This document shows positions 31,259 through 57,655 of a DNA stretch of 64,000 nt, in pieces. The notes below the pieces were generated by a model. The model ran no database searches. It worked only from the letters and a program-made list of their open reading frames with translations, and was not told where the DNA came from. The stretch is from Lactococcus lactis. Its GTDB lineage: Bacteria; Bacillota; Bacilli; Lactobacillales; Streptococcaceae. The stretch lies in the NCBI RefSeq assembly GCF_029023865.1, contig NZ_CP118969.1, positions 1,240,001-1,304,000 on the forward strand. The letters are read 5' to 3'. The first letter of the stretch is position 1; every line of letters begins with the position of its first letter. The translations under genes were made by a program, and so were the position numbers.

Positions 31259-31353
31259 AAAAAAAGACGTCCCAGGGGACGTCTTCTTTATCCCCTAGAT
31301 GATTAACGAACATCAAAGAGGACCCACATTTTATTAGCCAAAAACTAATGTGG
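31259..31353 (-). promoter_or_regulatory. aroF transcription attenuator
   Basis: Four segments of a trp-type attenuator. Segment 1 CCACATTAG (31353-31345, covers the leader stop codon) pairs with segment 2 (CTAA.. ATGTGG, 31337-31324). Segment 2's tail GGGTCCTCTTT (31325-31315) can instead pair, with one mismatch, with segment 3 AAAGAAGAC (31289-31281). Segments 3 and 4 make the terminator AAGACGTCC-CCTG-GGACGTCTT followed by T7. Ribosome stalling at the Phe codons would mask segment 1 and favour 2:3, letting aroF be transcribed. Confidence 0.85.
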
Positions 31354-31398
31354 ATCATTCATAAAGAAAAAATAAAATTTTTTAAAGTTGTTAATCAT
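31345..31398 (-). CDS. Phe-rich leader peptide of aroF (17 codons)
   Basis: ATG at 31398 with GAGG 7 nt upstream encodes MINNFKKFYFFFMNDPH and stops at TAG (31345). Five of 17 residues are Phe and one is Tyr, with F-Y-F-F-F in a row at 8-12. The stop codon lies inside the first attenuator stem. This is the composition and position expected of a phenylalanine-sensing leader; its product has no function of its own. Confidence 0.87.
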   Translation of the reverse strand: MINNFKKFYFFFMNDPH

Positions 31399-31428
31399 TT
31401 TGGAACCTCGATATTTAATATTATTAGT

Positions 31429-31457
31429 TAGTATAATTAAAATTTTTTGATTTGTCA
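31429..31457 (-). promoter_or_regulatory. aroF promoter
   Basis: TTGACA (31457-31452), 17-nt spacer AATCAAAAAATTTTAAT, TATACT (31434-31429). Transcript would begin about 25 nt before the leader ATG. Confidence 0.85.
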
Positions 31458-35538: not shown

Positions 35539-38289
<2,751 letters not shown>

Positions 38290-38519: not shown

Positions 38520-38700
38520 GAGCGAATCAGTTACAAGCTATCGTTCAAGCTTTAGCTCCGCAGGGCAATGTTGTTGCACTATTTCACGCCTTGTTTGTCG
38601 ACGTGAACTGTTAGCCCTCTCATCGTGTCTCCACGACTCTGCGGCAGCAACCCGTATCCCTGCGGTAGCCTCACCTACCGACGATTATGTCATAGACATA
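38520..38700 (-). promoter_or_regulatory. M-box (ykoK) Mg2+ riboswitch
   Basis: Minus strand contains GGTAGGTGAGGCTACCGCAG, GGATACGGGTTGCTGCCGC and, 3', GCGGAGCTAAAGCTTGAACG, which match the conserved blocks of the ykoK leader (GTTAGGTGAGGCTCC, TGGAGATACGCTGCTGCC, GCTAAAGCTC). Followed by a strong terminator and then mgtA, so high Mg2+ switches off the importer. Confidence 0.92.
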
Positions 38701-45610: not shown

Positions 45611-45671
45611 GGGCTCTAGTATGATAAGAAAGTAAGCTAAAAGATTTTCATAAAGAAAATACAATTAAAAC

Positions 45672-45765
45672 TCGGACACATTCTTACGCAGGTCTTAACC
45701 TGTTCAAGTCTGATGGTCTTTCTCAACCGGTAATTTTAGTTTTTACCAGTACCCATTGTGTTATT
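45672..45765 (-). promoter_or_regulatory. TPP riboswitch (thi-box)
   Basis: Minus strand ACACAATGGGTACTGG...TTGAGAAAGACC...TTGAACAGGTTAAGACCTGCGTAAGAATGTGT matches the thi-box: the GGGT start, the TGAGA pyrimidine-binding loop and the CCTG..GCGTAAG..ATGT block. Confidence 0.92.
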
Positions 45766-45836
45766 GATTTATTTTTAAAACTACAACTACTTTAACATAT
45801 TTAAACTAAAAAAACTAATTTCGCAAATATACAAAA

Positions 45837-51719: not shown

Positions 51720-51855
51720 ATTTTGGTTGTAGAAATAAAAAATCTCTACACACAAAAGACATAGAGAGTTCAATTATCATTTTGATATTTGTCCTCGGTA
51801 GGAAGTTTATGACTTTCGTCCCCTACTGTCTTCGGTCAGTTCTTTTAGAACCATA
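51720..51855 (-). promoter_or_regulatory. L10 leader (autoregulatory mRNA element)
   Basis: Minus strand contains GAACTGACCGAAGACAGTAG and GACGAAAGTCATAAACTTCC, resembling the L10-L12 binding leader of Firmicutes. It is followed by hairpin TCTCTA...TAGAGA and T6 (about 51752-51775), a likely attenuator before rplJ. Confidence 0.8.
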
Positions 51856-57508: not shown

Positions 57509-57520
57509 ACAAAAATTGTT

Positions 57521-57655
57521 CATCTTCTTCCATCCAGACTTTACTGTCGCTAGCATATTCTCACTGCTTCAATCGCCGTAGCGAATCGCGGAGTCATAAG
57601 GTCAAAGCCCTATTTACCGCCGGTCCCGAATTACACGGTGCCCTGAAGATGTTTT
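57521..57655 (-). promoter_or_regulatory. FMN riboswitch (RFN element)
   Basis: Minus strand CTTCAGGGCACCGTG...TTCGGGACCGGCGGTAAAT...GACTCCGCGATT...CTGGATGGAAGAAGATG contains all conserved RFN blocks. High FMN should terminate ribU transcription. Confidence 0.96.

Follow-up and report, generated by a model that had tools for sequence, protein, structure and literature searches.

A Phe-coded leu/phe leader RNA of family RF01743 ahead of aroF in Lactococcus lactis, with a proposed wiring of its attenuator

The window analyzed here is a stretch of 64,000 nucleotides of Lactococcus lactis (contig NZ_CP118969.1, positions 1,240,001 to 1,304,000); coordinates given below are positions within it. 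On its minus strand lies aroF, the product of which matches the NCBIfam models PRK12755 (403.7 bits) and TIGR00034 aroFGH (257.2 bits), both above cut-off. The best three relatives of AroF among the named genomes are lactococci, records close to the window's own having possibly been excluded. The gene begins 102 bases downstream of an RNA leader. Upstream of this leader, on the same strand, are metE and a gene that reads by eye like metF. Downstream of aroF comes a lactate-oxidase-like gene, with a score below the cut-off of that family. The parts of the leader, in the direction of transcription, are the following.

31458-31430, minus strand: promoter, with TTGACA (-35 box, 31458-31453), a 17-base spacer and TATACT (-10 box, 31435-31430), from sequence reading
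31425-31261, minus strand: entire leu/phe leader RNA element, RF01743 (136.6 bits against a cut-off of 70)
31409-31406, minus strand: GAGG ribosome-binding site of the leader ORF, 7 bases 5' of the ATG, from sequence reading
31398-31345, minus strand: leader ORF MINNFKKFYFFFMNDPH, from ATG (31398) to TAG (31345), stop included; F-Y-F-x-F occurs in three Phe leaders among 28 matches
31398-31390, minus strand: 5' arm of P0, AUGAUUAAC, covering the start codon, with its partner at 31307-31299 (minimum-energy fold; co-variation z -5.0)
31356-31348, minus strand: segment 1, the 5' arm of hairpin 1, made of the final ORF codons (native versus swapped pairs, z -6.7)
31329-31314, minus strand: segment 2, the 3' arm of hairpin 1 (31329-31321) and a near-invariant tail GUCCUCUUUG (31323-31314) (leader alignment, co-variation)
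31307-31299, minus strand: 3' arm of P0, GUUAAUCAU (minimum-energy fold; native versus swapped pairs)
31295-31290, minus strand: segment 3, GGGGAU, proposed antiterminator arm, with its partner GUCCCC at 31280-31275 (segment 3:segment 4, z -7.0)
31288-31277, minus strand: segment 4, the 5' arm of the terminator, AAGAAGACGUCC (folding)
31288-31261, minus strand: terminator, with a T run reaching 31259, from sequence reading
31272-31259, minus strand: segment 5, the 3' arm of the terminator and the U run (folding; native versus swapped pairs, z -7.2)
31158-30136, minus strand: aroF, DAHP (3-deoxy-7-phosphoheptulonate) synthase, the regulated gene (NCBIfam models above cut-off)

The leader ORF contains five Phe codons and one Tyr codon among its 17 codons, and its stop codon is found inside hairpin 1, directly after the paired 5' arm. 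The folding energy of the 171-nt leader RNA is -45.5 kcal/mol (z = -4.91). Because none of 200 shuffled sequences was equally stable and the match extends over all 162 positions of RF01743, the fold goes beyond chance. The leader features described at 31458-31259 on the minus strand are confirmed as genuine. An earlier note, made from the letters of this DNA, had listed a promoter, a leader ORF with its ribosome site, a stop codon in the first stem and a terminator, followed by aroF; all are present, and its coordinates are accurate to within a few bases.

The element is a full-length match (positions 1-162 of 162) to the Rfam family 'leu/phe leader RNA from Lactococcus', with an E value of 2.5e-23 for the whole window. 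The curated cut-off is exceeded and a Phe-related gene, aroF, stands downstream, as befits a member of this family. The idea put forward in the earlier note, that a Phe-coded attenuator of the ribosome-stalling type precedes aroF, is borne out by this match and by the conserved Phe run. Its remark that no T-box was seen also holds, since no T-box family is among the six Rfam matches above threshold within the 64,000-nt window. Besides the leader, the Rfam matches in the window comprise three riboswitches (M-box, 38529-38689; TPP, 45664-45766; FMN, 57518-57654) and an L10 leader (51728-51853), all on the minus strand. The M-box is located just upstream of a gene (35539-38286) that looks by eye like a P-type ATPase.

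The surprise that the earlier note attached to finding such an attenuator in this bacterial group did not survive comparison with the literature. A table row of Weinberg et al. (2010; PMC2864571) reads 'Leu/phe leader, Y Y N, Lactococcus lactis, RF01743', where 'Y Y N' denotes certainly RNA, certainly cis-regulatory and no riboswitch. Moreover, leader peptides rich in branched-chain amino acids and associated with terminators, including a Leu attenuator, were predicted in L. lactis by Godon (1992, as cited in PMC6123439), and PMC5794164 likewise mentions leaders of this kind as predicted for the organism. Since RF01743 is catalogued in Rfam and listed from L. lactis, the aroF leader is not novel; it is a real member of an already known kind and family, catalogued since 2010. 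A search of the titles and abstract starts of the open-licence literature found no paper on the aroF leader, an absence that means little. The wiring proposed below is absent from the table entry and the 'Other motifs' section of Weinberg et al. (2010), the additional files of which may describe it.

Three copies of RF01743 are found in this genome: the one at aroF, one at C1:1214499 before leuA, and one at C1:1748872 before a permease of the APC amino-acid type, for which no NCBIfam model scored above cut-off. In each case the codons agree with the gene, the leuA and permease leaders carrying Leu runs and the aroF leader a Phe run. Among 14 control genomes, a match was obtained in L. lactis alone, and an order-wide search found RF01743 in one of 395 genomes, the window's own, under stricter filters that may miss weak members. 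Across 295 genomes of the family Streptococcaceae, matches occur in 20, of which 12 exceed the cut-off, and number 28 in total. After orientation and translation, the run is seen to contain Leu or Phe codons in all 28. According to the gene behind, 16 are of the leuA type (assigned by family in the window genome and elsewhere from the resemblance of the beginning of the protein), nine of the permease type and three of the aroF type, one of which is on a contig that ends ahead of the gene. In the leuA and permease leaders the Leu codons, mostly three to four in succession, lie directly 5' of the hairpin. The runs of all nine permease leaders contain Leu, and two of them Phe as well. A close permease orthologue (at least 79% identity) was found in nine of the 18 genomes searched, and in all nine the leader precedes it.

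The leuA-type leaders are divided equally between the genus (eight) and three other genera (eight). The RF01743-like leaders of these other genera (L014, L015, L017-L022) precede leuA, and seven of the eight score below the Rfam cut-off. The family extends beyond the species named for it in 2010. The Phe-type leaders were found in three genomes, two of the three being near-copies. Their runs read FYFFF, FYFFF and FYFIF, in peptides ending in KFYFFFMNDPH, KFYFFFINDPH and KFYFIFIKDPH. The earlier note had named beforehand a lack of conservation of the Phe codons in relatives as one of two findings that would speak against it; F-Y-F-x-F is present in all three Phe leaders, two of them near-copies.

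An Rfam scan (E 0.1) of 27 of the 28 aroF places of the genus, L046 being excluded, detected a leader within 1.5 kb only at the window's locus and at that of G024. The same scan (E 0.1) found no leader within 1.5 kb of aroF in six named relatives. At several leader-less aroF loci (L031, L034, L035, L039, L041-L044), a small upstream hairpin was seen by eye close behind a -10-like box, in several cases followed by a T run; it may represent a different, promoter-proximal control of aroF. Another arrangement occurs in genomes G062 (C1:1771813-1774503) and G058 (C1:172393-175034), where a mixed FFLLF leader is followed by a permease and then by aroF (L024, L025, L033, L049). The aroF match starts 55 and 43 bases after the permease match in G062 and G058, respectively, which suggests that one leader serves both in a single attenuated operon. 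A tree of aroF with 30 rows (26 of the 28 genus aroF places, one broken copy dropped, plus five named loci) neither supported nor excluded a common origin of the leader-bearing and permease-linked copies.

Which pairings matter was studied by comparing native pairs with partners swapped between sequences. The comparison used 22 of the 28 leaders (G053, G018, G020, G037 and both G058 leaders, which are cut, incomplete or near-copies, were dropped), with kinship among the sequences still included and with segment borders set by a script, at least one of them (G025) being misplaced. Native pairs were superior for segments 1:2 (z -6.7), 3:4 (z -7.0) and 4:5 (z -7.2) and for P0 (z -5.0). For the 17 leaders of the genus taken by themselves, the corresponding values are -4.5, -5.1, -5.8 and -5.0. 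The signal for 2:3 is weak (z -2.5, p 0.006 overall; p 0.063 in the genus), segment 2 being nearly invariant. Segment 4 is shared by the terminator (4:5) and the 3:4 hairpin, and both co-vary in this set of 22; they are mutually exclusive. RNAalifold, run on an alignment of 25 of the 28 leaders, recovers hairpin 1 and the terminator and, on this alignment, neither P0 nor 3:4.

The effect of translation was then modelled by blocking out ribosome footprints in the folding of 26 of the 28 leaders (G018 and G053, with a cut or incomplete terminator, being excluded). If one ribosome occupies the start codon, the preference for the terminator is lower, by more than 0.5 kcal/mol, when a second ribosome is at the run than when it is at the stop codon in 24 of the 26, the exceptions being G060 and G025. 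A smaller set of 14 leaders (16 hand-picked ones minus one with terminator arms misassigned by the script and minus one near-copy) had given 14 of 14, and there the result is the same whether the downstream footprint is set to 7, 9 or 12 bases. For the window leader, the preference is 6.0 kcal/mol at the run and 9.3 at the stop codon. When the start-codon ribosome is left out, the difference exceeds 0.5 kcal/mol in only nine of the 26 leaders and is reversed in one, and the window leader has 2.1 at the run and 2.8 at the stop codon. Folding of the 16 hand-picked leaders with a single ribosome showed no clear effect of which codon the ribosome occupied. Untranslated RNA does not favour the terminator in all leaders alike; in this genome's permease copy the preference is 0.4 kcal/mol. 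Forbidding 3:4 at the stall raises the terminator preference in all 26 leaders. If queued ribosomes and equilibrium energies are assumed, the direction of these predicted changes fits the logic of readthrough under starvation.

Taken as a whole, the evidence makes it highly probable that this Phe-coded member of RF01743 is a ribosome-mediated transcription attenuator that tunes aroF to how much charged tRNA-Phe is available. Charged tRNA-Tyr is perhaps also sensed, given the single Tyr codon in the run. As to the wiring, the models point to the following scheme. When Phe-tRNA is short, the ribosome would wait within the FYFFF run, and hairpin 1, which starts beyond the run, would stay closed. 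Segment 2 would then be occupied and segment 3 free for segment 4; with 3:4 paired, the terminator 4:5 would be blocked and aroF transcribed. When phenylalanine is plentiful, the ribosome would reach the stop codon in hairpin 1 and open this hairpin, so that segment 2 could pair downstream, 3:4 would be lost and the terminator would form. In a leader that is not translated, P0, which joins the start codon to bases just 5' of segment 3, would close, hide the start codon and favour termination. The P0 step is the least supported part of the mechanism. The earlier note had taken 2:3 for the antiterminator; co-variation and constrained folding suggest that the antiterminator is probably the local hairpin 31295-31290/31280-31275 (3:4) and that 2:3 opposes it. 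Considered on its own, the wiring in which a stall leaves hairpin 1 closed and allows 3:4, and arrival at the stop codon allows 4:5, has in our view an even chance of being correct.

The most serious competitor of this wiring is a classical four-segment attenuator, in which the stalled ribosome would free segment 2 (GUCCUCUUUG) to pair with UAAAGAAGAC and block the 5' arm of the terminator. The ten bases of GUCCUCUUUG can indeed pair with UAAAGAAGAC at nine positions (counted by eye in the window leader), and this pairing belongs to the minimum-energy fold with ribosomes at the start and stop codons. The ribosome position, however, is the wrong one: this pairing is seen once the ribosome has reached the stop codon and not while it is at the Phe run, and hairpin 1 remains closed with the A site at codons 10-11, three pairs being trimmed at codon 12. 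Moreover, forbidding the downstream pairing of segment 2 at the stop codon lowers the terminator preference, where the classical scheme would have it rise, in 24 of the 26 leaders. Downstream pairing of segment 2 (at least six pairs) is seen at the stop codon in only 12 of the 26, including the three Phe leaders, all of which lose 3:4 there; in the other 14, including all six tested from other genera, the fold formed before segment 5 keeps the 3:4 hairpin. In the window leader the partner of segment 2 at the stop codon is UAAAGAAGAC; because this overlaps the 5' arm of the terminator (segment 4), the predicted win of the terminator there is one of equilibrium energies alone. Overall, the classical scheme appears rather unlikely.

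Two further explanations concern what the leader senses. It might respond to translation in general, or chiefly to tyrosine, instead of phenylalanine: one Tyr codon is present in the run of all three Phe leaders, and the pairing of the start codon in P0 would render the switch sensitive to initiation. Yet each of these runs has at least three Phe codons against a single Tyr, and the homologous Leu leaders hold Leu at the same place, with Leu-related genes behind them, which makes this explanation improbable. Finally, the terminator could be regulated by another factor and the small ORF be a product of chance, TTT-rich codons being common in AT-rich DNA. The conserved F-Y-F-x-F, the stop codon within hairpin 1, the full-length match to RF01743 and the Leu or Phe codons in the runs of all 28 matches leave this last idea with very little credibility. 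Attenuation governed by charged tRNA-Phe is the reading retained.

In proteobacteria, the pheA, his and trp attenuators combine competing hairpins and a terminator with a leader peptide in which the amino acid under control is abundant. The aroF leader shares these three traits and, by its chain of alternating pairings, is nearer to the his than to the trp attenuator. Unlike in the proteobacterial systems, its hairpin 1 holds the stop codon and, according to constrained folding, would have to stay closed for readthrough, and its start codon sits in a co-varying stem. No feature sets the aroF leader outside RF01743, which in its table entry covers the same organism group and the same Leu and Phe gene classes (Weinberg et al., 2010; PMC2864571). 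In the branched-chain operon of L. lactis, the Leu leader (Godon, 1992, as reported in PMC6123439) is likewise a predicted attenuator with an amino-acid-rich leader peptide; it differs in having Leu codons and leuA behind. It is very likely the copy found in this genome at C1:1214499 before leuA.

The most complete picture would be that of a six-part switch, where a closed hairpin 1 is needed for readthrough, a ribosome at the stop codon frees an anti-antiterminator and a conserved stem at the start codon causes the untranslated leader to terminate. On one scaffold, the sensing codons would have changed from Leu to Phe, and the mixed FFLLF leader of two genomes would control a permease-aroF pair. 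This full picture is offered tentatively, and we would sooner doubt it than rely on it. The reading of raw sequence was sufficient to recover a genuine regulator. What is added here is a wiring that lends itself to testing, in two respects: which of the two rival pairings acts as antiterminator, and whether a change of codons alone alters the amino acid that is sensed. The case also shows that lactococci carry leaders of the ribosome-stalling type for leucine and aromatic pathways alike.
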